Positions 23,090 to 48,948 of a stretch of 64,000 nt of DNA are shown here, one piece after another (position 1 is the first letter of the stretch; every line of letters starts with the position of its first letter). A program made the translations under genes and the position numbers. Source of the DNA: Alopecurus myosuroides (Eukaryota > Streptophyta > Magnoliopsida > Poales > Poaceae); contig CM054058.1 in the NCBI GenBank assembly GCA_028641055.1, forward strand, positions 243,088,187 through 243,152,186, in the 5' to 3' direction. Below the pieces are notes generated by a model that had not been told where the DNA came from, made no database searches, and saw only the letters and a list, made by a program, of their open reading frames with translations.

Positions 23090-23831
23090 ATGCCTCCCCT
23101 CTTCCTCCTCCCCGTTCTGCTCCTCTTCGCCACGGCCCACGGCTACCCTCCCACCTGCAGCAACGCCACCTGCGGCGACCTGACCATCGCCTACCCTTTC
23201 TGGCTCAACTCCTCTTCGGGCTCCAGCTGCGGCTACCCCGGCCTCGGCCTCGCCTGCGAGAACAACACCACTCTGCTTCTCCTCGCCCAATCCCACCATC
23301 GATACAGGGTCACGGGCATCCATTACGACACGCACACGGTCTCCCTCGTCGACGACGCCGAATCCTTCAACACGTCCAGCTGCCCGCTCCTCCACTTCAA
23401 CCTCACCTTCGACGCCAGCTCCGTGCTGCAGCTCACCAGCTCCGACTCCAACATCACCTTCTTCTACAACTGCACGCAGAACGCCTCCTGGCCCTCTGCC
23501 GTGGAACTAAGTGGCTGTCCAGACTATAGCAGGAGCTCGTACGTGTTCACCGGCGATGATTACAAGGGCGAAGCGTACGAGTACGGGTGCCAGACGGCGG
23601 TGGTGGCGCCGGTGCTGGATGTCCATAAGAAGGGCATGGCGGACATACCTCTGGAGAAAAGATATGGTGATGTGCTGCTGGGCGGGTTCGAACTGAACTA
23701 CAGCCCGCACTCCGTGCCGTGCGGCATATGCGAGCGTTCCGGCGGATGGTGCGGCTACCGGCACAACCAGACCAATGGATGGATGGGGTTCACCTGCTTC
23801 TGCGATGGCGGCCCGACCACGGATCAGTGCG
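23090..23831 (+). CDS. WAK-like ectodomain first exon, copy 1
   Basis: The exon encodes a secreted ectodomain: signal peptide MPPLFLLPVLLLFATAHG, a GUB_WAK_bind domain (CGDLTIAYPFWL, then SCGYPGLGLAC, about residues 22-110) and a C-terminal WAK_assoc domain (YGDVLLGGFELNY, then CGICERSGGWCGY and CFCDGG). The ATG at 23090 is chosen because a signal peptide follows it directly; an upstream in-frame ATG at 22904 adds sequence with no such feature. It is 742 nt long and ends in phase 1 at a GTACGT donor. No kinase exons follow for 19 kb. It would splice in frame to the exon at 43042, giving 654 residues, or it may be an orphan. Without splicing it stops at 23873-23875. Confidence 0.8.
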
Positions 23832-24617
23832 GTACGTATGCCTTTTTTACTCGCTCGATCGTTATCTCTCCTTGAATTACTTCTACTTTCAGAACACGAG
23901 CTCCTTTGTTTCTTCGCAATGTCGTTAATTGCACTGTTCTTGTTCAGTCTGATGCTCCACCGAGCAACTCACCTGAACATCTGTTGGCAAATGCTAGAAT
24001 GAATTGGATAAACTGACCTGACTAATTCGCGTTGTTTTATCGGCAAACAGAACAACGTTCCGGAAGTAGCAGTTACTGCTCGAGAAAATAAATCTTGTGT
24101 ACCACTCTACTTTCTGACGCACTGGAACTTAAAACTATTGCTGCCTTGCTGGGTACACCTGGTTTCATAGAAACCAGAAGCAGCAGTATCATTTAGTAAC
24201 ACACGACAATCTAATTAAGTCGTTATTTATGAGCTCCCTGGTTAGGTCTTTCTCAGTCGGGCCACTAGAACAGCGAGAAGTAGTTAGTCCACAAGTTGCA
24301 GCGACGGAAGCAGCGTTAACGCCACGTCCGTACAGATAAATGGCTCCCAAGAGTCAAGATTGGGGTTCACGGCTTAACTGTAGCTGGAGATCGACAACGA
24401 TAGCTCAGTGCTGGTTGCTGGTTTCCGTCCGTGTTGAATTGATCGCTCGCCAGTTGCTTCATACGCTTTGTAGTGGCGTAGAAGCTGCAACTCAGACAGC
24501 CGGACTCCACTCCAGTCCAGTGGACTACAAGTTGCGTGGGACGGTGGGTCTCCCGTCCGTCTTGTGATCTTTTCTAGGTTTGGAATTCAGGAAGTTCAGC
24601 AATGCACGGCCGGGGCA
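23832..24617 (+). other. No gene seen; DNA downstream of ectodomain copy 1
   Basis: Only short shadow frames occur. I see no kinase sequence, transmembrane segment or recognisable repeat before the MITE at 24618. Part or all of it may be intron. Confidence 0.5.
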
Positions 24618-24817
24618 GGAAAATAATTATATGGGACCTGGTCTACATATTTAGCCCGTGGACCAACTTCAGCAATTGACACGTGGCTAAAAAGCAGTTT
24701 AGATCTGAAAATAGATAACCAGATTCTGTTTTTTCTCTATTTTCTAGCCACGTGTCAATTGCTAGAGTTGGTCCACGGGTCTAAATTTGTAGACCAGGTC
24801 CCATATAATTATTTTCC
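24618..24817. mobile_element. Mutator-type MITE, 200 bp
   Basis: Ends GGAAAATAATTATATGGGA and its complement begin terminal inverted repeats of about 70 bp with few mismatches. A perfect 9-bp target duplication, GCCGGGGCA, stands at 24609-24617 and 24818-24826. Nine-base duplications are typical of Mutator-like elements. It has no coding capacity. Confidence 0.88.
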
Positions 24818-25329
24818 GCCGGGGCAGGAGTAGATTTGCTTTCGGTCGGTACCTGCCCCCACGCACGCACGGCGACGAGGGTTTCCTCCGTTCATACTGA
24901 ATATCGCGGTCGACGCCACTGGCTGGTGCCGCGTGCCAGTGCGCTAGTACTGAGTACAAATGTACTTTAGGTAACGACCACACATCAACAGACTATAGAC
25001 ATCAGTGTCTCGTACCTACTACAGTAGGACTACCAATTAGGTTGCGAGCAGCTATCATCGACGTAGCGTTTGCAGCTTCCATCCTCCAAAATCATAGAGG
25101 TCTCCCGCCAAATCCGGATTTTCACCCTGGAGGTTGTCCACCGAATCCATTCACCGTTCCACGATTGATTTCGACATTTGTGCATGTATTTCATTGTGGT
25201 CACATATCTTGCATGGATTTCGTGAAAAAATTAACATTTTGTGTTGCCCGTGGAAAAAAGACAATTTTCCGGTCCTACAAACTGATTATTCGCGAGACAA
25301 ACTTTTGTCCTTTTAACTTAGCCCACTAA

Positions 25330-25710
25330 AAATATCTTTTTTCGCAAAAATATATGTGCGAATATAAATGTCCGGATGTATACCCAAGATTTTTGTTTAC
25401 AATTTTTTGACATTTTGCAGTTCATTTAAAATGCATTTTTCATAACCGGTGTAGATGCACCTAGGAGCCAAAACACCGTGGCCGGTATTGCATGACTATA
25501 TTACTTTACACATATTTCCGTGAACTTTACAAATATGCTTCACAATCTTATTTTGCACATGCTTTTCAAAAATCAAAATCGATGTCCATCGACAAGATAG
25601 TTGTGAGTAGGAGATTAACAATCTTTATCAAGCTTTGACCTTCTAAAACTAAAGCAACGAGCAAAATTTCCCAACCAACCATGGTCAGGCTTGAGGTGGA
25701 GAGTCTTCGG
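25330..25710 (+). repeat. Diverged repeat, copy A (partner at 31975-32361)
   Basis: From TATATGTGCGAATATAAATG to TTGAGGTGGAGAGTC this stretch matches 31975-32361 in order and orientation, with many substitutions and small indels. It holds no ORF. It may be part of a DNA transposon, as the partner adjoins a PF04195 fragment, or an old duplication. Confidence 0.65.
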
Positions 25711-26086
25711 CATGTAGCCCCCAAGTCAGCTAAACCTCGCCTTCTTCTCACGGAGCCAAGTTCACGAAGAACTCGCCCGACAAATCATGGTCAATCTTGA
25801 GGTGATGCTCGAACCTTCACAATATTCTTGGGGCAGAGACACAAGACGGAGTCTCTAAAATGATGCCTAGACCGTTAGGATATGAAAAATCTCTAAAAGT
25901 AATAGATGGAGATCTATATGCTTGAAGGTTCTTGCTTGATGCACAATCTAAGCTCAAATCACACTCACAAAGATTTCCTCTGTTAAGATGATACTTAACA
26001 CCAAAGAGGTGGATTTCACAGTAAGTGTACGAGGTAGATGCAATAGCTCATAGTCCAACATGAGCCTAAAGGGATTAGGTTCCTTA
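25711..26086 (+). other. No gene seen; flank of the copia element
   Basis: Non-coding, moderately AT-rich. After removal of the copia element it continues directly into 30987, with the target site CCTTA at 26082-26086. Confidence 0.5.
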
Positions 26087-26537
26087 TGTTACACGCAATA
26101 GCAAAACAACGATGAAGTTAAACAAGATTGAACCAACGGGGACACGAGATTTTAACGTGGAAAACCCTTCCATCAAGGAAGAGAAAAAACCACGGGCGCC
26201 AGCCAGCAATACTGCACTATTTTTCGGGTGAGGTTACAAACGCGTCGGGATTTACAATATATGTGGCTTCTACCGTGCGGCGGTTTACAAGAGGTATATA
26301 AAGACGGTCCTGACCTAACTAGGTCGGTAACGGTGAATCCAACTCGAACTCGGTAACAACTCGTATAAACAACACTCCACCTTGAGACAAATTCCAACTC
26401 GAACTCGGTAACCCGAACGAGATCGGTAACGGTGAATCCAACTCGAACTCGGTAACAACCCGTATAAACTCGTATATAAAGGCGGAGGCCGAACTTTTCT
26501 TTATCTTCATATGAATTTAGATCACCATAAAACAACA
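26087..26537 (-). repeat. 3' LTR of the copia element, with internal insertion
   Basis: It is 100 bp longer than the 5' LTR. The extra part (about 26330-26470) contains duplicated AACTCGAACTCGGTAAC units and a copy (26368-26395) of the LTR-end/polypurine joint that also stands at 26531-26558. TATATAAAG near 26296 may be the TATA region read in reverse. Confidence 0.85.
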
Positions 26538-26558
26538 CTCCACCTTGAGACAAATTCC
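26538..26558 (-). other. Polypurine tract of the copia element
   Basis: On the minus strand, purine-rich GGAATTTGTCTCAAGGTGGAG ends exactly at the LTR start TGTTGTTT. The final AAGGTGGAG is a usual copia polypurine tract. Confidence 0.75.
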
Positions 26559-26674
26559 TTCATGTAGCATAAACTAAACCTTCACCCTATAAACAAATAA
26601 AGAAAACACCTTCGGCGCCAAATAGCCTCTTGGGCTAAACAGTGATACCAACTAAGCTTGAGCAAAGCTCAAAC

Positions 26675-27117
26675 TTAGCAACAGGAACTGGCTTTTGTCA
26701 TCATATCAACAGGATTATCATGAGTACTAATCTTGCATACCTTCAGCTTACCTTGTGCAACAACATTGCGCACATAATGGTACTTGACATCAATGTGCTT
26801 TGTTCTCTCATGAAACATCTGATCCTTAGTAAGGTAAATAGCACTCTTACTGTCACAAAATAGGTTAATGCAAGTATCATCTCCACAAAGCTCAGCAAAC
26901 AGACCTTTCAACCAAACTGACTCTTTGCATGCTTCAGCAATAGGCATATACTCAACCTCAGTAGTAGATTGTGCAACAACACCCTACAAGGTAGCCTTCC
27001 AGCTAACAACACATCCACTAACCCTAAACACATAACCTGTGAGGGATCTTCTCTTATCCAAGTCGGCAGCAAAATCTGAATCCACATAGCCTGCGAGTCC
27101 CTCACCAGTCTTGCCAA
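26675..27117 (-). pseudogene. RNase H end of copia pol
   Basis: Frames at 26947-26675 (EACKESVWLKGLFAEL, LFCDSKSAIYLTKDQMFHERTKHIDVKYHYVR) give the copia RNase H with DSKSA and the HERTKHIDV motif. A frameshifted frame at 27117-26908 carries the upstream part. It is the C-terminal end of pol; the frame ends at 26675, before the polypurine tract. Confidence 0.8.
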
Positions 27118-27120
27118 ACT

Positions 27121-27912
27121 TCAAGCAAACTTTGGATGTGCCGCGAAGGTACCTGAAAATCCACTAACAACTTTCCAATGTTCTTTACCAGGATTAGCCA
27201 TGTATCGACTGACCAAACTCATAGCATAAGATAAATCAGGCCGAGGACACACCATGGCATACATTAAGTAACCAACAGCACTAGCATAGGGAACTCGTGA
27301 CATGTAGTCAATATCTTTGTCAGTAGCAGGACATTGCAATGCTGACAATTTGAAGTGTGAAGAACGATGAAGGACTTTCTTAATGTAATTCTCCTCACTA
27401 AGAAATAGCAATCTAAATTTTCTGTCTCTTGAAATTTCCATACCTAGAATTTTCTTAGCAGGACCAAGATCCTTCATTTAAAACTCACTACTCAATTGTT
27501 TCTTCAATGTAGTGATTTCTTTCATGCTCTTGGCAGCAATTAACATATCATCAACATATAGCAGCAGGTATATAGGCGATTCATTAACAAATTTAATGAA
27601 CACACAGCTATCATATTCAGACCTTTTAAAGTCACGTGACATCATAAAAGAATCAAAGCTTTTATACCCCTGTCGAGGAGACTGTTTCAAACCGTAAAGT
27701 GACTTCTTTAGCTTGCACACGAAATCCTCTTTACCAAGCACTATGAAACCATCAGGTTGGTCCATGTATATCTCCTCCTCAAGTTCTCCATGCAAAAACG
27801 CAGTCTTCACATCTAACTGCTCAAGCTCAAGATCATGCATAGCAACAATACTAAAGAAAGTACGAATAGAACTATGCTTGACAACTGGGGAGAACACATC
27901 ATTATAATCCAC
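27121..27912 (-). pseudogene. Reverse transcriptase of copia pol
   Basis: Two frames split by a stop at 27478-27480 cover the copia RT. The first (27912-27478) has VKTAFLHGELEEEIYMDQPDGF, KSLYGLKQSPRQ and LLYVDDMLIAA with the YVDD catalytic motif. The second (27477-27121) has MKDLGPAKKILGMEISRDR and SAVGYLMYAMVCPRPDLSYA. Frames to the right, up to about 28180, carry the RT start in broken form (VQCTSRCNHLRKMA). The product would copy element RNA into DNA; it is inactive here. Confidence 0.88.
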
Positions 27913-28336
27913 TCATGGAATCTGGCTGAAACCTTTTTCTACTAACCTTGCGTAAAACCTTGGAGGCTCACTAGGAGATAAACCCTCCTTTCTCTTGAAT
28001 ATCCACTTACAGCGGACGGCTTTCTTTTGTTTAGGCAAGCGCACGACATTTCACGTGCCATTTTTCTCAAGTGATTGCATCTACTCGTGCATTGCACCAA
28101 TCCACTTGTCACGATCAACCGAAGCAATAGCTTCATTGTATGTAGCCGGTTCAGCATCATTCTCCACCTGTTCTGCACAACTTAGAGCAAAATAAACAAT
28201 ATCACATTCCTCAATTAAACGAGTACAAGGTCCTTTATTCCTCTTCTCTCTACGCTATGCAATAGAATTTTTTTCTTGCTGCACAATAGGAGATGAGGGT
28301 GGCACAATATCATCCCCATCAATTTCAGTTTCCTCC

Positions 28337-29254
28337 TCATCCAGGTGTTCTAGCTCCACCTGCAAACGAACTCGTGGTTCGTCCTCGTCGGAAGAATCTG
28401 GCAATATCAGTCGACAAATTGTCCTCATACATAACAGATTCATTAAACACAACACTCCTGCTAAAGAAAGTCTTTTTGGTTTCCGGGTTCCACAACTTAT
28501 ATCCTTTTACTCCAGAACCATAACCAAGAAATAAGCACTTAACAGCTCTAGGCTCTAACTTTCCATTATCAACATGAGGATAGGCAGTGCAACCAAAAAC
28601 TTTCAGTTGTGAATAATCAACTGACTCACCAAACCATACCTCAATAAGAGTTTTCTTGTCAAGAGGGATGGATGGTGACCTGTTGATCAAGTAGCAGGCA
28701 ATGTTGGCAGCCCCAGCCCAAAAACGCTTATTCATGTGGGCGTTGGACAACATGCAGCGAGCTTTGGAGATGATCGTCATGTTCATCCGCTCGGCTACAC
28801 CATTCTGCTGAGGTGTGTATGGAATGGTGTGATGCCTGACAATGCCTTCCTGCACACAATAATCATCAAAAACATGCGAACAAAATTCGCCACCATTGTC
28901 AGTACGAAGCACCTTCACTTTTCTCTCAGTTTGTTTTTCAATCATAACTTTCCACTCTTTAAAAGAAGCAAAGGTATCATCCTTAGTTTTCAGGAGATAA
29001 GGCCAAACTCTTCTAGAGTAATCATCAATGATAGTAAGCATATAACGAGCACCACCATAAGAGGGCTTACGTGAAGGCCCCCACAAATCAGCATGTACAT
29101 AATCCAACGTACCTTTAGTGGTATGAACTGAAGAATTGAACTTAACTCTCTTATGCTTACCAAACACGCAGTGTTCACAGAACGGCAACTTACTCATATT
29201 GCAGTTCTTCGGAAGTTCTCTCTTCACCAATTCTGCCATACCATGTTCACTCAT
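28337..29254 (-). pseudogene. Integrase of copia pol
   Basis: The frame shows the end of the GAG_pre-integrase zinc region (FCEHCVFGKHKRVKF), then the integrase core with HADLWGPS, TIIDDYSRRVWPYLL, LRTDNGGEF and TPQQNGVAERMN, holding the D, D and E residues. The C-terminal half has YPHVDNGKLEPRAVKCLFLGYG, the usual copia integrase tail. A proper continuation to RT is broken at about 28180-28340. Confidence 0.88.
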
Positions 29255-29272
29255 GTGTCCAAGTCGCTTATG

Positions 29273-29709
29273 TCAGAGGTTAGTTGTACTTGGATCATCA
29301 TTAGTAATAACAGCAGCAGTACCAGACAAAGTGCTACCTCTAAGGATATATAACTTGGCAGAATTCATATCACCAATCATAACAATGAGAGAACCTTTTG
29401 ATACCTTCAGGCGTTTATCCCCTCCGGCGTACTTGTACCCGTCACAGTTAAGGGTACTCAACGAGATCAAATTTCTTGCCATGGATGGTATGTGTTTCAC
29501 TCCCGTCAATGTACGTGTCATCCCACCATGGGTCTTGATCTGAACAGATCCAACGTCAACAATGTGATATTTGTTGTTGTTCCCCACACGCACAAAATCT
29601 CCAGTCTCCACAGCCTCATAAGAACTGAACCAATTTTTGTTACAGCAAATATGAAACGAACAAGCAGTATCAAGAATCCACTCATCATCACTGGTAACAC
29701 ATGCAGCAA
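29273..29709 (-). pseudogene. Protease and pre-integrase region of the copia element
   Basis: The frame at 29709-29518 resembles the start of the copia protease region (FLILLVRFIFAVTKIG in a shifted frame of the WILDSGCSFH-type motif). The frame at 29611-29273 has DVGSVQIKTHGGMTRTLTGVKHIPSMARNLISLSTLN, the conserved protease C-terminus and link to the pre-integrase domain. A stop near 29270 and frame changes break it. Confidence 0.65.
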
Positions 29710-29833
29710 AAACAGCTAAGCATTCACCATCCGAACTATTATCACCAGCAACAACAGCAGCCTTACCAGTACTATTACCATTACCGTCAGATTTATTTTT
29801 CGGTTGGTATGTGTCGTTCCTTTTCTCCTTGTT

Positions 29834-30595
29834 CTACACCTTCCAGCAATCCTCAATGGTGTGATTGGTTTTCTTACAGTACCTGTAGAACTTGTCTCGT
29901 CCTTTGGACTTGGAACGGTCCCTGCTCTTATCTCTGTTGTTGTTGTTGTAGTTGTTATCTCGCTGCTCAGGCCTACCTTGTACCTGCAATGCATCGCCTT
30001 TGGAGGACGATGCGTTAGACTGCACCATAATTTTCATCTTTTCCCTGGTCTACAGGGCCTCACAAACTTCCGTGAGCGTTAGTTCATCGCGGCTTAATAG
30101 TATGGTATCACGCAGGTTTGTAAAAGAACTAGGCAGCGAGCATAACAACAGAAGAGTTAAATCTTCATCCTCATATTTTACCTCCATCGACACTAGGTCG
30201 GACACGATCTCCTTAAATATCGACAAGTGATTCATCACAGAACCACCATCTTGCATCTTGAGCGAGAACAAATTCATCTTAACGTGCATCTTGCTGGTTA
30301 GATCTTTTGACATGCAGATCGATTCCAGCTTGAGCCACAACGCTGCCGCGGATTTCTCCTGCAGCACTTCTTGCAAGATATCATTAGATAGATGAGGTTG
30401 AATCAACGATAAAGCCTTACGATCTTTGCGCTTCTCCTCAGGAGTCCACTCCCTCGCTTCCTTATTCCCGAAAGCATCCAGCGCCTCATCAAGATCCGAT
30501 GCGTGCGACAGAACCACACGCATCTTTACTTGCCACGGAGAAAACCTTGTCTTGTAGTCCAACAACGGTATATCAAACTTCATCGATGCCATCAC
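29834..30595 (-). pseudogene. Gag of the copia element
   Basis: The frame at 30595-30050 is a UBN2-type copia Gag: MKFDIPLLDYKTRFSPWQVKM, then LSNDILQEVLQEKSAAALWLKLES, then SLPSSFTNLRDTIL and ELTLTEVCEAL. A stop at 30050-30052 separates it from the basic nucleocapsid part (30037-29834), where CKKTNHTIEDC keeps part of a CCHC zinc knuckle. It starts 20 bp inside the primer site, as expected for gag. Confidence 0.82.
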
Positions 30596-30615
30596 GAATC
30601 CCTAATCTGAAACAG

Positions 30616-30630
30616 AGCTCTGATACCACT
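30616..30630 (-). other. Primer-binding site of the copia element
   Basis: On the minus strand AGTGGTATCAGAGCTC follows the LTR end directly; TGGTATCAGAGC is complementary to initiator tRNA-Met. Confidence 0.85.
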
Positions 30631-30981
30631 TGTTACACGCAATAGCAAAACAACGATGAAGTTAAACAAGATCGAACCAACGGGGACACGAGATTTTAAC
30701 GTGGAAAACCCTTCCAACAAGGAAGAGAAAAAACCACGGACGCCAGCCAACAGTACTTCACTATTTTTTGGGTGAGGTTACAAACGCGCCGGGATTTACA
30801 ATATATGTTGCTTCTACCGTGCGGCGGCTTACAAGAGGTATATAAAGGCGGTCCTGACTTAACTAGGTCGGTAACGATGAACCTAACTAGGTCGGCCCTA
30901 AGACTCCGGCGACGGGCCTCGCGTAGCGGAGGCCGAACTTTCCTTTATCTTCCTATGAATTTGGATCACCATAAAACAACA
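30631..30981 (-). repeat. 5' LTR of the copia element
   Basis: It is 351 bp, TG...CA, matching the 3' LTR except for the latter's 100-bp internal gain. A TATATAAAG block is at 30840-30848. Confidence 0.9.
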
Positions 30982-30986
30982 TCTTA

Positions 30987-31974
30987 TGTTGGTAGAAAGC
31001 AGAAAAGAGTCGTTGATCAAAGATTCGCCCTTCTGTTGCGCTTGCAGCAAAACTAGTCATAAGAAGATTCACATCAATGGTCAAATATGTAAGGCCATAA
31101 GGTATGCCACAGATAGATGCTTTGATCAAATTCAGCTATTTTAAAATAAAAATATCACACTTGGAATTTTAATATGCTCCACCAAGACAATCCAATCGAC
31201 AACCATTTCAGGGTGATGTTGACCCGAGACTCAGTAGCGCCGATATTTTTAGACATGATAAACCCTACTCAACATAAGCCAAATCCAGTCACATCGGAAA
31301 AACCTGATAACACATATGCTCAATATATGCGCAAGTCTAGAGCAAAAGACGGTACAATCGAAACAGATTCCTAGCATTATCGCAACAATAGGACTTGATA
31401 AAATAATAATGTCAACAATTTCCATAAGCACTGGATTTAGAACTACTGAGTTACGTGTAAGAATTTTAAAAAAATCGTCTTACATAACCGCCAAGATCTA
31501 CTATGAAGATACGAAGAACGCCCATACTTGCAAAGATCTAGCACTTACAAACGCCGTCAGCAGAGGATCGGTGTTTGTCGTTGACGTTTGCCACCAGATG
31601 CAAGTGTGGAATTCCATGCGGCATGCGATTCTAACGCAAAACAACATGACATGTTGAGGTAGTAGGTCACATGTTTACCACTATATGCAGGTGTGGAATT
31701 CCATGAAGTGTGCCGCAACAATGAAGTAATCCATGTCTGATCCTCAAACAACTCCTTGTGGATACAATGGGTAATTCGTCGCAGTGTTGTAAATACAAGG
31801 CCTCTATGCTATCCACATGTTTAGGGAAAAAAAATTGGGCAACGATTATCTAGTTCGGATTAGACGACTTAGGAGGTAGTGGTGGTGGCTAGAGTTTCAC
31901 AAAAAAAACATTTTCCGTTGTTACAAACTGATTATTCACCAGACAAAGAATTTCTTTTTTACATAGCTCACAAA
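30987..31974 (+). other. No gene seen; contains a short diverged direct repeat
   Basis: The stretch is AT-rich and non-coding. Two related blocks, each with GTGTGGAATTCCATG, stand at 31588-31640 and 31670-31725. They may be subterminal repeats of a DNA transposon, but no ends were found. Confidence 0.45.
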
Positions 31975-32361
31975 AATGTCTTTTTTGCACAAAATTATAT
32001 ATGTGCGAATATAAATGTCCGGACGCATACCTAAATTTTGTGTTTACAACTTTTTGATATTTAGAAATTCATTTAGAATGCATTTTTTATAATGGTGTAG
32101 ATACACTTACGAGACAAAACATTGTTTCCGATATTGCATGGCTATATTAATTTATGCATATTTCCGTGAACTTTACAAATATGTTTCACCACCTTATTTC
32201 GCACATGCTTTTCAAAACTGAGAAATCGATGTCTATTGATAGGAGGGTTGTGAAAAGGGTTGTGAACAGGATATTATCAAACTTTATCCAAATTCGACCA
32301 ACTAAAACTAAAGTAACAAGAATTTTTTCCAACCAATCATGGTGAATTTTGAGGTGGAGAG
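31975..32361 (+). repeat. Diverged repeat, copy B (partner at 25330-25710)
   Basis: This is collinear with copy A and ends at a sharp joint with the PF04195 fragment at 32362. Similarity to copy A stops at the same point, after GAGGTGGAGAGTC. Confidence 0.65.
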
Positions 32362-32853
32362 TCACTGCTGCTCGGTTGAGCCTTCAAATTTAAGAAGCGC
32401 TTGAAAAGTGCCCAGTGTGGTGCTATCCCAAGATAGCACTCGCAGAGCACATCGTCTGTTAACAGGCGATGTGCCGGATCGAGTTCGGAGGTACTGCACG
32501 TCGTACGCCGCCAGAAGGGCGAGAAAGAATGGATGCAGGGGGAAGAAGACTCCCCTGAAGATGTGATTGGTGAAGGCCATCCTCTCGTCATTTTCCGAGG
32601 CGGGACGAGCCTCTGAGCCCGGGCGCCTCCATGAATCGGCTCGGAGGAGCGTCTCGCGCTCAGCAATGGTGAGAAGTTTCGCGGTCCCGGTGGATTTGGT
32701 CCACTTTCCTCCTTTCCTCCTTTGCCATTCGATGCCGCTGGCCTCGGAAGAACTTCTGTACTTACGGGTGGTCAACATGGTGAAAGGCTGGTGGAGATTG
32801 AGAAACACGGCAATGATTTTTTCGCTAGGAATAGGGGAAAGCTGCGGGTGCAA
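32362..32853 (-). pseudogene. Truncated PF04195-type gene fragment
   Basis: The 163-codon frame carries RMAFTNHIFRGVFFPLHPFFLALL, clearly related to the antisense gene at 6423 (ADHVSRRLSLPLHPFFVALL). The continuation CECYLGIAPHWALFKRFL lies in another frame (32666-32337), so a frameshift is present. The fragment ends abruptly at repeat copy B and has no later exons. It starts near 32853, and TATAAATA stands upstream at about 32896-32903 on the same strand, so the promoter region was carried along. It is a piece of a Tat-type element or a DNA transposon that took up this domain. Confidence 0.65.
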
Positions 32854-32958
32854 TGAAGAAGAAGGGGAAAATTAACCTTTTTCCCCTCCACGGTATTTAT
32901 AGCAAGGTAAAATCACTCCCACTTTTGATTCTTTGTGGAGCTAAATTATCACTACATG

Positions 32959-34622: not shown

Positions 34623-34920
34623 CAAAGTGTACAAGATCACTTCAACGTCCCGACTCGTAGTGTGAGGTCCACCGAGGAGGTATGGCGGGGCATACGACTA
34701 CGCAGATCCGGTGTGGCGTCTCCTCCGTGCTCGAAAGTTCAATTACCGTACGTACGATGACACCATACGGTTTTCTTAATTTTAAGCGGCATCTTTGTTT
34801 TTTTTTTTGTTACTAACGGGCATTTCTGAATAAATTAATTCTCTACATTGGAATCCAATGATCAATTGCCAACCGAGGAGAATCAGTTGAACTTGCATGA
34901 CATAGTTTTAAAATAAATAA

Positions 34921-35278
34921 CTAGAAGAATACCCCGCGCGTTGCAGCGGGTATCTTTTAAAAGAAAATTCTATAAACAAAATGGTAAAAAATATTCCATT
35001 ATCAAGATTCAGTTGGTCACATAATTGATATACTAAATTTAATTCGCGTGAAATTATTTTATATTTTGAAAAATAAATATTAGTGACATGGATAATTATA
35101 TGGTTGAAAAAAAGATGGCATGGCTATGTGGCATGAAAATATGTAATATCACAATTATTAGTGGAGATGACATGGCTAATGATTGGCTAAAATGGTGGGT
35201 GATGTGGATAGTTTGCATGTTGAGATAGAAAAATCATAAATGCATCTTAGTGGGATTTTATCTTATAATAAGTATAGA
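34921..35278 (-). mobile_element. Small non-autonomous Helitron
   Basis: On the minus strand it starts TCTATACTTATTATAAG and ends with a hairpin, CCCGCTGCAACGCGCGGGG, eleven bases before the 3' end TTCTAG, followed by T. A TC start, a 3' hairpin and a CTAG end without target duplication define Helitrons. The 5' flank is C-rich GATA repeat rather than the expected A, so that end may be off by some bases. It has no coding capacity. Confidence 0.7.
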
Positions 35279-35296
35279 CAGATAGATAGATAGACG
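35276..35296. repeat. GATA microsatellite
   Basis: A short run of (GATA)n, interrupted by GACA and GACG, sits at the Helitron edge. Confidence 0.7.
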
Positions 35297-35707
35297 GATT
35301 GTTCTACTACTCGAAAAAAAATTAGAGAGCAACTTATTGCACGCGCTTTGAGTTGATAGCGAAGTTGCCTTCTACTACAGAAAGTTGCATTTAAGTATTG
35401 AGTGCTCTTAAAGCATCGGTCACAATTAGGAGTAGGAGTACCATTTGTTTTTCCTTGAGGGGTAGGATTAGGAGTACAGTACCTAGCATGATTTACTGAT
35501 GAGAATTGAAGTCAAGTCAACTAAAACCTTGCATGACGTAGCAGGCAGCCCACGATGGATTGATTGGCCTAGCACAAGGTGCCAAGACGCAAAGACCGAC
35601 TTGCTTGGGTCTTCCGATCAGCTCACCTCGTGCAGGGCGTGTTCCCTACGTCCGGCACACCAACCAACCAACCAATGTTTTCCACCAGACCCAGTCGTGC
35701 CCGCGAC

Positions 35708-35714
35708 TTAAATA
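35708..35714 (+). promoter_or_regulatory. TATA-like box of ectodomain exon copy 2
   Basis: TTAAATA lies 99 bp before the ATG at 35807. Two overlapping W-box cores (AGTCAA, TTGACT on the other strand) stand at 35511-35521. Both motifs are short and need transcript support. Confidence 0.45.
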
Positions 35715-35806
35715 CGGCGGCGCTCGGGCGAAACCAGTGGCGTGTAAAGACTAGTGGAGTAGAGAAGAAAACAGCCACATTCATCTGCCTCCTCTCGCCA
35801 GTCGCC

Positions 35807-36686
35807 ATGGCTCACCTGCCATTTTTGCTCGGCCTCCTCTTGCTCGGAGTTCATGCCTCACATGGCTCTCCTCTTTTGCTCAGTACCTACGACGATTCCA
35901 TGTGCCCGGAGTCGTTCAGCTGTGGCGGCGTTGACTTCAGATATCCGTTCTACCTGTCAGACGCAACTCGAGCAACCTCCGATTACACATCCAACTACTC
36001 TTGCGGCTACACCGATCTGAAGATCTTCTGCCAAGACGTGGGCAAAACCAAGGCCCCGGTCCTTCATCTGGGAGGAGACAGCTACACCATCCTGGACATC
36101 TCCTACGACAATCACACCATCATTCTCGGGGACGCCGACGTGCTCCCCGGAATCAACAGCTGCCCCAGAGTTACCCACAACGTGTTACTCGGACAAGCGT
36201 GGCTGAACTACACCGACTCCTTCAACAGCCTCGCCTTCTTCTTCGACTGCTACTCCGCCCCAGACGATGAGGCGCCTTCTGATTTGGATGAATACAAGAT
36301 ACAGTGCAATCCGGCTGCAGGCAGTGGAGATGGTGTTTCCTTCGTGTTCCTCTCTGACTCTGAGGGATTCAACGTTTCTCAACAGTACCAGCTGGCTGAC
36401 CACTGCTTACAGAATTTCGTGGTGCCGGTACACGAAGATGCTCTGCTGGGAAGAAATCCGCCCGTTCTGCCGGCCCAATACGGTGCCGTGCTTAAGCGGG
36501 GGTTCGAGTTGGAATGGAGCCTGCAGGGCACAGCGCAGGCATGCCAAAATTGCGAGCAATCTGGCGGACGGTGCGCCTACAGCGAGGGCAGAACCTTCCT
36601 CGGTTGCTTGTGCTCCGGTGGGAAGGTGGGTGGTCAGGATTGCCACGGCACGGCCGACACCTCTGCTCATGCAGAGTCCTCGTCAG
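35807..36686 (+). CDS. WAK-like ectodomain first exon, copy 2
   Basis: Signal peptide MAHLPFLLGLLLLGVHASHG, then GUB_WAK_bind (SCGGVDFRYPFYL, SCGYTDLKIFC, about residues 35-110) and WAK_assoc (YGAVLKRGFELEW, CQNCEQSGGRCAYSEGRTFLGCLC). Several N-X-S/T sites fit a glycosylated extracellular protein that may bind cell-wall material. The start at 35807 has Kozak-like GCCATGG; upstream in-frame sequence to 35579 has no signal peptide. The 880-nt exon ends in phase 1 at GTAAGT, and splicing to 43042 would give 700 residues. Reading through the donor continues 56 codons to a stop at 36854-36856. It lies between a Helitron and copy 3. It is either an alternative first exon or a receptor gene that lost its own kinase. 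Confidence 0.85.
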
Positions 36687-36856
36687 GTAAGTTCTTGAGA
36701 TCAGATCCTTCAATTAATTTCCCATTTGAAAGCAAACGGGCGATAGTACCTTTCACTTGCCAGTACCCATTCTCGCCGGACGATAAACCCAGTTTGTGTG
36801 AACTCATGTCCACGTACACCGATGATCATTATAGTACAGTACTACTAGTAATTTGA

Positions 36857-37562
36857 TGGGAGTAGTAGTTCCTTCTAGGTGATTTGCAACTCGTAGCATC
36901 CTGCTCCTCTCCCGTTGTGCGCGCTCGTTTCCGCTGCTGCTTGCCCATTGCAAGCGTGAGCCTGGTTTAGCCCGAGAATCAGCGGCGCTTGCTTGAAAGA
37001 CGAATAGCGCGTGGGTAGACAGAAGGAGATAAATATTAAGGACGGTTCCTGACCGTTTCCACGCCCCTTGATCCTGTTCAGCATCGAGTCACACCTTCTC
37101 GCGAGTGAGGTTCCTCATCGAACCACAGCTTTTCTGCAACGTTTCAATGTCAAACATCATAGAACTGCTGCCTGCTGTGCTGGGCGTGTTCGTTACTATT
37201 GTTCCTAGTCCTAGAAGAGAGTTGACCGAGGACCCAGTTTGGACATCGCTAACACCAAGTGACCGAGTATTAATTAAATGACAAAGCTACAAATTCCAAA
37301 ATAAAAAGCTTCTGGTACTTACTAGAAGAAAATAAATTCGGCAACTAGAAGCCTTTCTTCCACGCGCCTCGGCCGATAAAGAAACCACGCAAAGTCTCCA
37401 CGGAACAGCGACGGGAAGTGCTAGCAGTCTAGCAGCCAACTTGCGTGGCGCACTCAGCGTTCTGCGCGACACCTGACCGGTCAAAGGTTGAGCAAGAGGA
37501 GCCTTCCCAGCACGTCCCTCTCATCCGCCTCCGAGAAAACTCGCAATGCCTTCCCAGCATGA
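36857..37562 (+). other. No gene seen; upstream region of ectodomain copy 3
   Basis: No protein-like frame and no recognisable repeat. A W-box core (GGTCAA, TTGACC on the other strand) is at 37479-37484, 138 bp before the copy 3 ATG. Confidence 0.5.
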
Positions 37563-37568
37563 TATAAA
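37563..37568 (+). promoter_or_regulatory. TATA box of ectodomain exon copy 3
   Basis: TATAAA in the context GATATAAACG, 59 bp before the ATG at 37622. It suggests a promoter private to this exon. Confidence 0.6.
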
Positions 37569-37621
37569 CGAACGCGAGCAGAGGGCAGGCAAACTTCTCC
37601 TGAATTCATTAGCCAACAACC

Positions 37622-38456
37622 ATGCCTCTCTTGCCAAGCCACCACCACGACCTGCTGCTGCTGCTTCTCCTCTTGGCTGCGGTTGCCGCCTCCCATGGCG
37701 ATTCATCCGGTGATACTTATTACAACTCCTCCATGTGCCTGTCTCAAACTTACACCTGCGGAGACGTCAGTATTAGATACCCGTTCTATCTCTCCAGCGA
37801 GAGAAACGAGCTCAAGGGCTACAAGGATTCCTGCTGCGGCTACCCTGGCCTGGGGATCGTCTGCGACGACGGCAAGCCCATCTTGCAACTCGGCGAGGAG
37901 AGCTGCGCAGTTACGGGCATCCAGGGCTCCAGCGCATACGTGTCTCTAGCGGATCCGGATGTCGTCCAAGGCAGCTGCCCAAGAGTCGATCACAACGTGA
38001 CCTTCGGACAGGACTCATGGCTGAACATCTCTGCCGGCACGGTCGATTACCTCTTCTTCTTCCTCGGCTGCAACTTCAGGCTTGGCCTCGTCCAACCACC
38101 TCCCATCGAACCGATGACCTGCCCAGATTTTGCCAAGGATTATCCTGGACGGCCGTCGTTCGTGATTCCTGAAGATATCGTTCCTGCCGGGACCTGGCAG
38201 CAGGAGTGCGACAAAGTCATACGAGTTCCTGTGCTCAAACATGGCTCCGTCCACCCAAATGATACTGCATGGAGACAAACTGGATACGGCGACGTTCTTC
38301 GTAAGGGCTTCCAGGTGTCGTGGGACAAGAGCAACAACATCAAACCCGTCCGGTGTACCCAGTGCGAAGATTCCAAGGGACGGTGCGCCTTCAACCAAAC
38401 TGGAGGATTCCTGGCTTGCTTGTGCACCAACGGCCGAATCAACGATAACATCTGCG
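37622..38456 (+). CDS. WAK-like ectodomain first exon, copy 3
   Basis: Signal peptide with a run of leucines (MPLLPSHHHDLLLLLLLLAA), GUB_WAK_bind (YTCGDVSIRYPFYL, CCGYPGLGIVC) and WAK_assoc (YGDVLRKGFQVSW, CTQCEDSKGRCAFNQTGGFLACLC). The 835-nt exon ends in phase 1 (CTGCG, then GTACGT) and would join the kinase exons in frame to give 685 residues. Reading through the donor stops at 38540-38542. It resembles copy 4 more than copies 1 and 2 in the SLADxDVV and SCPxVxHNVT segments, as expected for tandem duplicates. No kinase follows before copy 4. Confidence 0.87.
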
Positions 38457-38542
38457 GTACGTACAATTCAACTCGTAAGCCCTTTTCAAACTGGCACCCA
38501 ATTTCCAATAGCACGGGAATCAATTTTTGTTGTGAGACATAG

Positions 38543-39029
38543 TATGAACATATCTTGATTCTTGAAGAACTAACCCATACACAAGTGCTCGTCTAGATAG
38601 TCTTAAACTGAACCCAGTTTGAAGCCGTCCTTTTGTTTTACTTTCTGAAATTGTTGGGCAATTTGCATCTCGCAACCTCCGCTTCCTTTGCATGCTAGTT
38701 AGTACTGCCTGACGCTCGATGTGGCTCTGCATCTTTTCTCGTTTCTGCAATCTTCCACCATCTATAGAGGCGCTAGTGCAAACGCTGAACGTTTCTGATC
38801 GCTGTGAACCAAGCCTATCAGATTTCAGTTTCGTCAGGCTTCTTCAGGCGTGGCAACATCTGTAGCTTGAATAGAGTAGTTCAGGTTTACTACTTGTTAA
38901 GTTGCTTTTTTTTTATAAAGACTTCTTAAGTTGCTAAATGAAATCCGTGTACAATTGTTCGCTATAGCGCGATATAGCTTCGGTATAGCGGATTTTAAAT
39001 GTTGTGCTATTTTGTAACATAGCACGCTA
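38543..39029 (+). other. No gene seen; between copy 3 and a Stowaway MITE
   Basis: Non-coding sequence with no recognised repeat. It may be intron or intergenic, depending on whether copy 3 splices to the distant kinase. Confidence 0.5.
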
Positions 39030-39247
39030 CTCCCTCTGTTCATTAAAGTAAGGCTTATATATTTTTTTCAAAAGCCAAAAGGTGTAAATTTTGACCAAGT
39101 TTTCTACAATACCAAATCAATACCGTTAGATACATCATAACATATATTTTCGTAGGTATTGATAGTTATTTCTAAAATCTTAGTCAAAGTTGACATTGTT
39201 TGACTTTTGGAAAAAAACACTATGCTTAGTTTCAGAAACAGAGGGAG
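39030..39247. mobile_element. Stowaway MITE, 218 bp
   Basis: Ends CTCCCTCTGTTC and GAAACAGAGGGAG are inverted repeats flanked by TA duplications at 39028-39029 and 39248-39249, the standard form of Tc1/mariner-derived Stowaway elements in grasses. Confidence 0.9.
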
Positions 39248-40280
39248 TATCTAGAACATTGGTTGGGACACCCACCCGTGTGTCATATCTCTGCTAACTG
39301 ACTAATTTGTGTAGTTTTCTAACAGCTGGCCTCAATAGCCGATGGTTTGTTACAAAACCTCAATAGCTGAGGGAGGCATTTTTGCTCCTGAGTGCATATG
39401 CACCCTTTATTTAAAATGCAATTCAAAAGCATTTTAAAAAATTGTAAAATAACGTTCGCGCATAAATCTTCATATGTTATATGTCCACAAAGGTGTTTCA
39501 CGAAAATAACCCAGTATTTTTTTGATCTGCGTAAAAAGACAAATTTTGGTGATAAAATAATTGTTTTTTCACAATACTTTTTACACGAGCCATAAAAATA
39601 TAGGTTTTCATGAAACGGTATTGTGAACACATAGGTGTATCCACGGAATTTTATTTCACGATTATTCAACATTTCAAAATACTTTTTTTTAAATCACGAA
39701 ACGACATTGTGAGCCAAAGTAGATTTCACTCACTCAATAGCCGGGCTTTTTTTTGTTACTCCCGCCCCAATAGGTGAGCAATCTACTCCTTTCAGTTAGC
39801 GTATTTTTCTCCGAGGGTTTTGAGTCTTTCTTTCACCACACGTTTACTTCAACCTTGTCTCTAGTCATTTTCAATTTTCTTCTCCAAAATCGCTTACAGT
39901 GATTGATACTTTCCTCGAAGGGCGAAGAGAGGAGTGTGCACAACCACGTTCACAGACGTGCAGAATCATTCAGAAAGGCAATTAAATCTTCCAGACAAAA
40001 TTCCAAATTACATCATAAATATGGACCTTTAGTATCTTTGCTTTGACACCAACCGAGAAGAAAGCACTGTCCAGTCGCGACGGGCCCATGGACATGGAGA
40101 CTGGAGAGACAGCAGGACGACTTGCATCGCTGCGGCAAGATGGCGCGTCGCAACTGCCACGGGCGTGCTATCAAATGTCACGTGCCGTACGTCCGTCCCG
40201 GTCCTGCACTGCCCACCCAACCGTCCCAACAGGCCAACCCCCTCACCCAAACCCCGCCAAGCTCTGCTCCACGCACGGCT
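39248..40280 (+). other. No gene seen; AT-rich repeat-like stretch then promoter of copy 4
   Basis: Positions 39320-39760 look like a decayed DNA transposon: AT-rich, with CAATAGCCGATGGTTTG-like and CAATAGCCGGGC-like motifs at its two sides. No ends could be fixed. A G-box CACGTG is at 40179-40184. Confidence 0.4.
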
Positions 40281-40286
40281 TATAAA
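40281..40286 (+). promoter_or_regulatory. TATA box of ectodomain exon copy 4 / kinase gene
   Basis: TATAAA in GCTTATAAACGG, 81 bp before the ATG at 40362. Spacing suits a pol II core promoter with a short leader. Confidence 0.65.
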
Positions 40287-40361
40287 CGGGACGCCGGCAC
40301 CATCCGCACCAGCTGCGCGGAATCCGGCCTCGCTCGACCCCAAACAGAGAAGAAACCAGCC

Positions 40362-43300
40362 ATGTCTCCCGTCTGCCGCCACCGCCACGGACGCATCCTC
40401 GCCCTGCTCGTCGTCCTCTTCGCCGCCGCATCCGATGGCGATCCGGCCGGTGACACCTACAACTGCCAGCCCGAGCCTTCCACCTGCGGCCATCTCAGCG
40501 TCCGGTACCCGTTCCATCTCTACGACGGGACAGATGTCTCGGCCCTGACGGAGTACGGCGAGCCGCCGCGCTCCTACTGCGGCTACCCCGGCCTGACCAT
40601 CCTCTGCGCCAACAACAAGCCCATCCTCCGCCTCGGCCGCGACGACTACGCGGTCTCGGCCATCAACTACACCAACCTCACCGTCTCCCTCGCCGACGCC
40701 GATGTCGTCGCCGGCAACGGCAGCTGCCCGACAGTGCGTCACAACGTCACCGTCCCGAAACCCTTCCATCTCGCCACCTCCACCGACGCCTACCTCTTCT
40801 TCTTCGTCGACTGCGTCTTCGGCCCTGACGGCGATTTCGGTCCCAAGCCATTGCGCAAGCCGCCGAGCCTCAAGCCCATCACCTGCGGAGGCTCTGGAGC
40901 AGACCTTGCCACCGCCATGTCCTTCGTGCTTCCGGAGCGCGAGGTCCCTCCCAAGGACTGGTGGCGGGCGTGCCAGTCGGTGTACAGCACGCCCGTGCTC
41001 AGGGAAGCCATCCCGGCGGATGCCCAGGACGCTGGGTGGAGGCGAGACGGCTACGTGAAGGCTCTCCGCGCCGGGTTCCATGTGAGCTGGGACCTCAGCT
41101 CCGGCCCATGCGGCCGGTGCGAGCATTCCAGCGGCAAGTGCGGCTACAACAGCACCGGCCAGTTCCTGGGCTGCCTCTGCACCAATGGCGCCCTGGCGGG
41201 CAGCGACGGCTGCATCAACATAGCTGAAACCGCCGCGACACTGTCCGGTAAGCCGTTCCGATCGAACTGCTGCAGCACTTCCCGTACCCGTCCGTATTCG
41301 CAACCGACTGCCCGGACACTGTCGGTCGACTCGTGCTTTGCACGCTAACTCAAGTCATAGGCTCAGAGCTCATAATCTGACAGATTGATAGGCCGGGCCA
41401 ACTCGAGAATAACAAGCGTATGTCTTTTTTCAGAAAAAGAATATATATCAGGTGGGTGTGAATGGACCCGAAGCTTGAATCACATCAGCACAATTCGTCC
41501 TCCCTTTCCTTCCTTTACATCTGACAAAGATGTCTCTGATTTTCCTTCCGATCGATGGCCCCATCGTCATTGAGTTTGGGAAGGGCGATAGTGTTTCTGG
41601 AAGCCAGCAGACCAGGGTCTTGGCCACATCGATCACGTCGGCTTCAGTCCGACCACGCGGAGAAGAAAATTAATTGGCACCAGTTGCACTGCACAGCGAC
41701 GCATCGCCATTCCGGGAGACTAATCAGGGATTCAGAAACCATTGTTGATTAGGTCGCTGCTGCTTTTCATGCCCTGTCCACTGTCTTAGCTACTGCAGGC
41801 ACCGTGGCAAGAGCTACCCGTCGAATAGTTAGGTGATCAGCAGCAAAGTTGATGTGCACTTGGGCCCTGTCCAATTTATTTGATGGGTCGACATCTTCTC
41901 ACATTTCTCAACCGAAGAGAGGCATGATCATTCATTCGACTGTTGGTCATAGATGCCCTGCATCGCTGGTGTTCACATTACCAAGACCCACTGGCCAGAT
42001 GCAGCAACCTGACATTATGTTCACCTCCAAAATCTGTGCAATCTTATATTATGACTACAAAAGCACTGCTTTCGAACGTCATCAACGACTAATTTAAACC
42101 ACTTCTTATTCAGCTTTTTACCTGATGGCATGAGTTGATGGCTCAAAGTTTGCTCCATCTTTTTTAGGAATAAACTGATCTCTTATTGTGAAAACATTAA
42201 TTGCAGTTTCTTTGTTAAGTATAAAATCTAAGACTTTCCAGACGGTTAGCCTTTGATTTTGAATTTTTTTCACACGCTCCGACATTATGGCAAGATATTC
42301 TTTCCATTATTTTAACGCTCCAACTTTTGATAGTTTATAGCTCATTAAAAAGGTTTATATTGTGGAACATAGGAAGTAAGATTTTCTAGACCATTAGTCT
42401 TTGATTTTGAATATTTTTTACACACTCTAGCGTCATGGTAAGATATTCTTTCCATTATTGTAACTGTCTTGAGCGTATGGTTTTGCCTGCCTTTATGACT
42501 TCTTCAGCTTTCTTTCTTGATGCTGATGCTCTACCTATCGGTATATGTGATGACTATATGTTAACTGCGACTTGAAGGACTAAACCCATCACAAAATCAA
42601 AACGTGTTGGTTTTTCTACAACTTTATCAAAAGTCCTTAGTGTTTCCATCTTACATGTCATGATGCACCAGTTCTTCAAAATGAAACGCAAACGCCCTGC
42701 GTCTCCTTTGCTGTTGGTACAAGATTTGGATTTTTCAAAATGCAGGTCGTTGTTCATCGACACTCAAAAGATATAAATCCATCCTTTGCATCATGGCAAA
42801 AGTTTCCAGGCTTTTGAGATTGGCATGTCATGTGACAGTTTTATTAGGAAGAAACAGCAGCTTGGCCAAGTTCCCCATGATACTTAGGCAGCAAATGTAA
42901 AATCTTCTCTTAGACTGCTAAGGTTCCAGCAACTAATCTGAATTAATGACAGAAAATAACCAATTACATGTTCGATTATCCAAGCAAATCTTCATAGACT
43001 TTTTTGCTGATTTACTTTTGTGCTTGTCAATTGCTTTGCAGGATCAAAAGGTAAAAAGACAAGAGCAGCTATAGCAGGTACTAGACATGCATATTTCCTG
43101 TGTCACTTGCTAATACTCATGGAGTCACCATTAAAGAAAAAAAAACTCATGCAGTTAATTTCTTGCTTCGGATGCCGCACAAGACGAGTTAGAGCATTTT
43201 TACCAGCAATTAGTATTGTATGTGAATATATGAACTCCTTACACTCCCTGCTTGCACTTATATTTGATTTGCGTTCTTGATTTAGCTGCTAGAGCACACC

Positions 43301-44919
43301 AATAAATTCACCACGTCACTTTATGCACCTCTTCGTTGGTTACACTACTCTGAATATTTATACTAGACTAGAAGAAGTTTGAGAGATTAAAAAAAAATCG
43401 CACACGGATAATCATGATTCGCATGTTGTTCTGCATTTTTGTAGGTTCGGGCTGCAGCAATGTCGGTCGTTAACATGCTTGATCTTCGTTTGCTATTACA
43501 GGTGCGGTGGCCGGCACCGTCGGTGTCTTGCTTCTTGTTGGCGCGATAGCGTTTTTCTTGATTCGAAAGAGAAAGCAGAGGAAGGTTGTGAACTCGTCGT
43601 CAAAGCTCCTCAAGTACAGCGGCTCTAGCGGGACCCCAACGCGTTCCAGGGACCGCGACATGGAGTCCGGCAGCAGCCAGGACATGGGCAACCGGTTCAG
43701 CTACGAGGAGCTCGAGGAGGCTACCGATTCCTTCAATGAAAACAGAGAGCTCGGCGACGGCGGCTTTGGCACCGTGTACAAAGGTACACAAACACAGGAT
43801 GGCATGCTTATCTTAAGCCACTGGCCAGCACGTCTGCACCAAAATCTGAGCTACGTACGATTGATTGAAATTGTGAACTCATGGGTTGCTATCGATGCAT
43901 CCAGGGTATCTGGTGGACGGGCGAGTGGTGGCGGTGAAGCGGCTGTACAACAACAGCTACCGGCGGGTGGAGCAGTTCGTGAACGAGGCGGCCATCCTGG
44001 CGCGGCTGCGCCACCCGAACCTGGTCATGTTCTACGGCTGCACGTCCAAGGAGAGCCGCGAGCTCCTCCTGGTCTACGAGTTCGTCCAGAACGGCACCGT
44101 CGCCGACCACCTGCACGGCCACCGCGCGGCGGAGCGCGCCCTCCCGTGGCCGCTCCGCCTCAACATCGCCATCGAGTCCGCCGCTGCGCTCACCTATCTC
44201 CACGCCATCGAGCCGCCCATCGTGCACCGCGACGTCAAGACCAACAACATCCTCCTCGACACCGACTTCCACGTCAAGGTCGCCGACTTTGGCCTATCCC
44301 GCCTCTTCCCGCTCGATGTCACGCACGTCTCCACCGCTCCCCAAGGCACCCCAGGGTATATATGTTGTCAATCTGCCCAACTATTGGGCAAATTACAAGA
44401 GAGGAAGTAGAGATCTCCTCGCATTTTGGGATGTAACCAACTCCTTGTGTTTCTGTGCATGTCAGGTATGTGGATCCAGAGTACCACCAGTGCTACCAGC
44501 TCACCGACAAGAGCGACGTCTACAGCTTCGGGGTCGTCCTGGTGGAGCTCATCTCGTCAAAGCCTGCCGTCGACATCACCAGGCAGCGGAACGAGATCAA
44601 CCTGGCCGGCATGGCCATCAACAGGATCCAGAAGTGCCAGCTCGAGCAGCTGGTGGACCTCCAGCTCGGCTTCGAGTCCGACCCGGCGACGAGGAAGATG
44701 ATGACCATGGTGGCAGAGCTGGCGTTCCGGTGCCTGCAGCAGAACGGCGAGATGCGCCCGCCGATCAAGGAGGTGCACGATGTGCTCAGGGCCATAAAGG
44801 ACGGATCCGTGGCGGTGAAAGATGGAGGCAAAGACAAGGACCTTGTCGAGCCCCTCTCTCCTGACACGGTGCATGCTCCATGGGACAGCAGGAACACCAC
44901 TCCTAACACTAGCCACTAG
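40362..44919 (+). CDS. WAK/LRK10L-like receptor kinase (ectodomain copy 4 plus kinase)
   Basis: Exons 40362-41247, 43042-43077, 43502-43783, 43905-44355 and 44466-44919 have GT-AG introns and give a 702-residue protein. Exon 1: signal peptide (to about residue 25), GUB_WAK_bind (CGHLSVRYPFHL, YCGYPGLTILC), WAK_assoc (CGRCEHSSGKCGYNSTGQF). Exon 2: a 12-residue basic hinge. Exon 3: a transmembrane helix (about 308-328, VGVLLLVGAIAFFL) and the glycine loop LGDGGFGTVYKG. Exon 4: VAVK Lys near 413, HRD near 509-511, DFG near 529-531. Exon 5: YVDPEY and the C-lobe. All catalytic residues are present, so this is a plasma-membrane RD-type Ser/Thr kinase, probably sensing wall or pathogen cues. A stop at 44917-44919 follows a short polar tail. 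LRK10L1.2-like is the best family label. Confidence 0.88.
41248..43041 (+). other. Intron 1 of the kinase gene, with a diverged tandem duplication
   Basis: The 1.8 kb intron lies between GTAAGC at 41248 and TTTGCAG at 43041. Blocks at about 42229-42320 and 42379-42467 are diverged copies of one another, sharing CCTTTGATTTTGAAT-type and AAGATATTCTTTCCATTATT segments. No gene inside. Confidence 0.7.
43042..44919 (+). CDS. Shared kinase cassette (exons 2-5), possible common 3' part for four first exons
   Basis: Exon 2 (36 nt, 43042-43077) begins in phase 1, so any upstream exon ending in phase 1 with G yields the codon GGA. All four ectodomain exons (ends 23831, 36686, 38456, 41247) end this way. 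The cassette is 1223 nt and gives in-frame totals of 654, 700, 685 and 702 residues. No other kinase sequence occurs between 22529 and 45000. I see no second promoter directly before exon 2. The cassette is annotated separately from the gene model above because its use by copies 1-3 is an inference. Confidence 0.6.
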
Positions 44920-48501: not shown

Positions 48502-48948
48502 GTCGGTGTCTACGTGACGGGGCTGTCAGCAGCGCGGCCGCGTCCGGGGACGTGGCGGCATGCGAGGTCGGAGAGGGTTTGGATCGGAGGGTTTGGTTTG
48601 GTGGTGGTGGCCTGGTGGGAGCAGGCAGAGAGAGAGGGAGGAGAGGGGAGGGAGGGAGGAGGTGGGAGCTCACTACTAGTGCGAACTTTTCGTCGCGAGC
48701 CAGTGTGTTTAATTGGGTGATTTAGCTGTGGTTTAGATTTAGCGAAAGGAACGAAGCGGTTGGACTCGCCCGTACAGGAATGTGGCGGATCGGCTGAGGC
48801 TGCCAGCTGCCATGGCCAATTTTGCGGTCGTGCTAGACTAGCAGCAGCATCTACTCGGATTGTACGATGGCACAGTACTGCAAGCTTTTTGTCCATGTGC
48901 GATATGGGGTTGGAGCCTTCACCATTCTTGCTATTTTATACAGTACTA
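48502..48948 (-). promoter_or_regulatory. Likely 5' leader and promoter region of the ABHD17-like gene
   Basis: GC- and purine-rich sequence with GAGAGGGAGG runs near 48630-48662, often found in grass gene leaders. No clear TATA box was found. The Stowaway at 48949 bounds it. Confidence 0.4.

Follow-up and report, generated by a model that had tools for sequence, protein, structure and literature searches.

The DNA analyzed here, referred to below as the window, is a 64-kb stretch of the Alopecurus myosuroides genome in which four ectodomain-coding first exons lie on the plus strand upstream of a single set of hinge, transmembrane, and kinase exons. The first exons, C1 through C4, occupy positions 23090-23831 (742 nt, 247 codons plus 1 nt), 35807-36686 (880 nt), 37622-38456 (835 nt), and 40362-41247 (886 nt; the closest of the four to the shared exons). 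The shared part, also on the plus strand, comprises a 36-nt hinge mini-exon (43042-43077; a multiple of three), an exon for the transmembrane and juxtamembrane segments (43502-43783), and two kinase exons (43905-44355 and 44466-44919), the second of which ends with the stop codon. An AG acceptor precedes each of the four shared exons. Every first exon has a length of 1 modulo 3 and ends with a G followed by a GTA donor (GTACGT for C1 and C3, GTAAGT for C2, and GTAAGC for C4). When joined in silico to the shared exons, C1, C2, C3, and C4 give products of 654, 700, 685, and 702 amino acids, respectively, each with a single terminal stop. All coordinates given in a preliminary description of this DNA were thus confirmed, as were the phase-1 ends of all four first exons and the intact reading of the four proteins without an internal stop.

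A start codon and a hydrophobic leader are present in each first exon, and both the GUB_WAK_bind and WAK_assoc domains score over the curated Pfam cut-off in all four. The leader and transmembrane stretches were picked out by eye in the four joined translations. A Pfam protein kinase match is present in the C1 product, and the four products share an identical kinase tail. The locus therefore has the features of an LRK10L1-type (wall-associated-kinase-like) receptor, namely a GUB_WAK_bind/WAK_assoc ectodomain and a Ser/Thr kinase domain, and the named closest relatives among the best 120 of 2464 kinase matches (from Lolium, Triticum, Aegilops, Oryza, and Phragmites) are labelled LRK10L-like 1.2. 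The four ectodomains are only 29-43% identical to each other in pairwise comparisons, which indicates that they are old, rather than recent tandem copies that have yet to decay.

The preliminary description held that three first exons lacking an adjacent kinase were unlikely to be dead copies, given their open frames and matching splice phase. The argument from open frames stands, with chance odds on base composition alone of 1.9e-3 for C1, 3.8e-5 for C2, 5.9e-5 for C3, and 3.3e-3 for C4. The matching splice phase carries less weight, since relatives whose kinase is quite different also split the ectodomain from the kinase at about the same position, so this junction is probably family-wide. 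The notion that C1 through C4 are chance open frames was rejected on the basis of domain content and conservation. Similarly, no second kinase was found in the 64-kb window by tblastn with this kinase and seven LRK10L2.1-type proteins as queries, the best stray match having an E value of 0.14 (31340-31161, minus strand). A second kinase lost from among the first exons was thereby rejected, and the earlier statement that no kinase fragment lies between them held for both kinase types.

Certain features upstream of the start codons bear on whether each first exon could be independently transcribed. TATA-like boxes had been described 59-99 bp before the ATG of C2, C3, and C4, and they are found on the plus strand at -99 (TTAAATAC, 35708-35715), -59 (TATAAACG, 37563-37570), and -81 (TATAAACG, 40281-40288), respectively. 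In the 200 bp before the C1 start codon, no TATA-like box was found. Furthermore, the C1 intron is 19.2 kb long and holds a Copia-type retrotransposon (26087-30981, minus strand) with integrase and gag-pre-integrase domains. The repeat pair of this element is 94.2% identical over 258 bp, and on the usual clock rate the insertion is presumably fairly recent. These observations would fit a mixed state, overlapping with the explanation preferred below, in which C2 through C4 are live and C1 has been silenced in this lineage after its intron grew. Such a state has a small but appreciable chance of being correct, and is opposed by the fact that C1 is intact and better conserved than C2 and C3 both in Puccinellia (80% versus 68% and 72%) and in Lolium perenne (82% versus 64% and 61%). 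A partial C4-type ectodomain of Alopecurus shows 88% identity. Separately, positions 24618-24817 form a 200-bp palindrome that is 82% self-complementary and is possibly a hairpin-type MITE.

Comparison with other grasses was based on a search with the C2 ectodomain, which returned 64 proteins, and on the best 120 of 2464 matches to the kinase part, in a database clustered at 90% identity. Together these searches yield receptors from many grasses, whose ectodomains were typed by BLAST. In a tree of 136 rows, and with the window itself excluded, at least 13 of 42 kinase tails carry two or more exon types, at least 7 carry three or more, and at least one (wheat) carries all four; these counts are lower bounds that reflect best-ranked matches and 90% clustering. 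The remaining 29 tails carry a single type among relatives drawn under the same conditions. The tree leaves out 48 rows (fragments, fused models, near-duplicates, and many proteins of the Os05g0550800 type), in addition to rows for which trimming did not yield an ectodomain of 200-345 residues. Among the tail groups, the Oryza group combines O. sativa with O. glaberrima and the Triticum group combines two contigs of different size, with the last 220 residues shared in each case.

Several individual loci display the arrangement directly. Single locus tags combine types C1, C2, and C3 in Puccinellia (ACUV84_032943), C2, C3, and C4 in Aegilops geniculata (ACQJBY_027682), C3 and C4 in Festuca (ACQ4PT_025761), and C2 and C4 in Setaria (SEVIR_5G280000v4), while isoforms X2, X3, and X4 of one Lolium perenne gene are of types C2, C3, and C1. 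NCBI entries named 'isoform X' are predictions that draw on RNA evidence. The C1 type is found on this kinase in Puccinellia, Lolium, Avena, Triticum, Oryza, and Zea. When receptors of different type on this kinase are paired, their ectodomains are 33-50% identical and their last 383-415 residues are the same, with two exceptions: a maize pair has 328 identical end residues, and a Leersia pair differs at the last residues but has the same kinase at 280 of 280 positions. Overall, the comparison with related grasses agrees with the earlier proposal of a first-exon array that shares one kinase, in that each of the four exon types is annotated on the same kinase.

Almost all of these relatives are predicted genes, and a number of fused models illustrate that prediction programs can link neighboring exons. 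Two relatives come from contigs that most likely represent spliced RNA because they have no room for the introns seen in the window. One (P0080, C4 type, 698 amino acids) joins ectodomain to kinase within a 2,383-base contig, and the other (P0056, C2 type, 634 amino acids with an incomplete start) does so within 2,450 bases; the equivalent stretches of the window genome span about 4.6 and 9.1 kb, respectively. By eye, P0003, P0016, P0018, P0138, P0145, P0150, and P0159 each contain two or three ectodomains in tandem. Such multi-ectodomain models likely arose when prediction programs concatenated alternative first exons, and would then point indirectly to more arrays.

In contrast to these kinase-joined forms, 8 of the 64 proteins from the C2 search have ectodomain domains without a kinase domain. 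Also, the reading frames that continue past the donors of C1, C2, and C3 soon reach a stop (at 23875, 36856, and 38542). Some of C1 through C3 might therefore mainly yield secreted proteins made of the ectodomain only, via intron read-through, which could act as decoys or co-receptors. This possibility is considered improbable: the donors look good (that of C2 lies in the context CAG|GTAAGT), and all types occur in kinase-joined form in relatives, within searches that covered proteins of at least 0.55 of full length.

The age of the four types was assessed with a second ectodomain tree of 60 rows, 56 belonging to this array and 4 of the Os05 type, from which all rows carrying the second kinase discussed below and further near-duplicates were left out. 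Bootstrap and SH-aLRT support for the type clades is 100/100 for C1, 100/99 for C2, 95/96 for C3, and 100/94 for C4. Each clade contains rows from Pooideae, Oryzoideae, and PACMAD grasses (subfamilies were assigned from general knowledge), and thus the four types on this kinase predate the split of these lineages. Downstream of the kinase, an over-long O. nivara model (P0036) continues past the kinase and matches the window on the same strand at 45682-45789 and 48743-48817; the region 3' of the kinase is colinear with that of Oryza. Minus-strand frames following the kinase (45711-48525) resemble an alpha/beta hydrolase gene, with one of three tested matching Hydrolase_4 weakly, at a score under the cut-off. 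A 2.2-kb repeat lies close to each end of the window (1462-3690 and 60192-62452), and its copies are 78.6% identical and in the same orientation.

The explanation we favor is that the window contains a single gene for an LRK10L1.2-type receptor kinase, which can begin with any of four alternative first exons. Every one of these would supply a start region of its own, a leader, and an entire ectodomain of the wall-associated-kinase type, and splicing from its phase-1 donor would skip the other first exons to reach the common hinge, transmembrane, and kinase exons. Promoter choice would then set which sensor sits on the single signaling module. We assign a probability of roughly 0.86 to the reading that this is one kinase gene with alternative first exons of which at least three are in use. 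The exon anatomy, the intact frames, the domains, and the presence of every type on this kinase among other grasses are direct observations. We infer that C1 through C4 are used in A. myosuroides, that the choice among them is made by promoters and not by splicing, and that their ectodomains differ in the ligands they bind. The layout has clear counterparts in wheat, rice, and further grasses, so a single signaling enzyme can probably carry any of several different detectors.

There are points that count against an array, including the lack of a TATA-like box before C1, the 19.2-kb intron with its Copia-type element, the 29 of 42 tails with one type, the predicted status of nearly every relative, and the 8 of 64 proteins with an ectodomain but no kinase domain. 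In the strictest alternative, only C4 works together with the kinase, and C1 through C3 are the leftover first exons of lost tandem duplicates. Tandem duplication followed by loss is common in receptor-kinase clusters, C4 adjoins the kinase most closely, and 19 kb containing a retrotransposon sets C1 apart. Nevertheless, this alternative is judged very unlikely given that all four frames and donors are intact in exon types that predate the BOP-PACMAD split, that every type occurs on the same kinase elsewhere, and that no kinase relic lies beside any first exon.

The layout preferred here, with one kinase gene and several first exons, has several known parallels. In vertebrate clustered protocadherins, each of several variable first exons has a promoter of its own and is joined to one constant set of exons, and a single cell makes a random choice among promoters that share elements and are accompanied by insulator sites. 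The likeness to protocadherins that was raised in the preliminary description holds for the layout, whereas the sequence has no bearing on random promoter choice, and the two systems differ in that protocadherins are unrelated proteins with dozens of exons rather than four. A closer parallel is Arabidopsis AtLRK10L1 (AT1G18390) of the same receptor family, which produces the transcripts LRK10L1.1 and LRK10L1.2 from two promoters (Shin et al. 2015, as cited in PMC12479429). The earlier statement that alternative first exons are reported for this gene is borne out by that citation, although two transcripts are described there as compared to four sensor exons in the window. The title of the same article mentions alternative splicing of mini-exons (Shin et al. 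2015, as cited in PMC12479429), and the 36-nt hinge exon at 43042-43077 invites comparison with these Arabidopsis LRK10 mini-exons. The hinge exon can be skipped in frame, with no early stop whether or not it is included, in a test model that had two kinase borders wrong.

Arabidopsis LRK10L3 has two first exons that encode distinct ectodomains on identical transmembrane and kinase parts, with peptides that back both isoforms, and its authors propose a modular-sensor idea (PMC13136898). This layout is like that of the window, but the gene is from a dicot and has two isoforms, and the relevant passages of that article describe no array or cross-species conservation. Among grasses, transcript variants of LrK10 in Aegilops tauschii (LOC109770626) and wheat (TraesCS3D02G261800) share downstream exons and vary in the position of the first exon (PMC13207577). 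LrK10 belongs to the LRK10 family, as does the window gene, but section 2.1 of that article does not analyze ectodomain types, and the exon number and PSTOL1-like kinase reported there suggest that LrK10 probably carries the second kinase described below, unlike the window gene. Among the best-ranked titles of the openly licensed literature searched, no description of a conserved four-exon grass array was found. Within that literature, what is new is thus the conserved array of four sensors, paralleled on two kinases, and not the idea of LRK10L genes with alternative first exons, for which two-exon cases are already in print.

The ectodomains of this array are not confined to one kinase. A second kinase, here called K2, is LRK10L2.1-like, is 29-39% identical to the window kinase (K1), and includes that of maize ZmWAK-RLK1. 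This maize protein is encoded by the causal gene at Htn1, which confers resistance to northern corn leaf blight (PMC10236108). The ectodomain of ZmWAK-RLK1 (Htn1/Ht2/Ht3) falls in the same clade as C2 even though its kinase is only about 32-33% identical to that of the window, and the relevant literature passages on ZmWAK-RLK1 mention no alternative first exons. A search with the K2 tail, limited to the best 120 of 207 matches, gave 61 typed rows (7 of type C1, 35 of C2, 15 of C3, and 4 of C4). At least 6 of 54 K2 tails in the 136-row tree carry two types, and none among the matches listed carries three. C2 and other types thus also occur on K2, often in nearly identical form within a species (P0046/P0047, P0006/P0009, P0106/P0255, and P0082/P0253).

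Inside the exon clades of the 136-row tree, kinase labels are close to random. They change 32 times, compared to a mean of 36.0 for shuffling inside each clade (64 of 1000 shuffles gave 32 or fewer), whereas two arrays that had long been separate would need about four changes. Furthermore, among the 63 rows that have a same-genus row of the same clade on the other kinase (with genera assigned by script from database names), 55 are nearer to such a row than to any row on their own kinase from another genus, and 8 are not. This clustering by genus across kinases suggests that sensors are exchanged between two arrays.

A single array spliced to both K1 and K2 is disfavored by the differences within 15 K1/K2 pairs of the same type, which make separate exons for the two kinases likelier. 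Six of the seven pairs from contigs of equal size are 90.6-100% identical: O. glaberrima C3 (276/279), Triticum C1 (249/252), Lolium perenne C2 (279/285), Phragmites C2 (275/293), Miscanthus C1 (240/265), and Setaria viridis C2 (298/298), the last of which leaves the single-exon reading open in that species. The seventh, Lolium perenne C3, is at 131/194 (67.5%), and hence not all pairs have been homogenized. The other 8 pairs (from other assemblies or species, or with the contig not stated) are 82.4-94.0% identical. We read the tree and pair comparisons together as K1 and K2 arrays that have probably been homogenized via gene conversion or repeated local copying. It is tentatively proposed, at somewhat less than even odds, that grasses hold two parallel four-type arrays, one on LRK10L1.2 and one on LRK10L2.1 (including ZmWAK-RLK1/Htn1), that trade exons by these routes.

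At a paralogous locus of the Os05g0550800 type, first exons of two types likewise share a kinase tail in Sorghum (P0155 and P0156), Setaria, Urochloa, Aegilops, and Triticum. We take Os05g0550800 to be the rice gene LOC_Os05g47770. The latter is reported to be syntenic with maize ZmWAK49 (PMC12479429).

If confirmed, the arrangement at this locus would mean that, in several cereals, a single immune-type kinase works with a number of wall sensors selected at the promoter. A survey that assigns one ectodomain to each receptor kinase would then overlook much of the sensor repertoire, a knockout of the shared exons would eliminate several receptors together, and first exons at such loci should be scored individually in resistance mapping. 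Because sensors on the two kinases cluster by genus, the exchange of detector modules can also be tested. If such exchange takes place, a sensor could be moved onto another kinase, and specificities of resistance could spread from one receptor to another.
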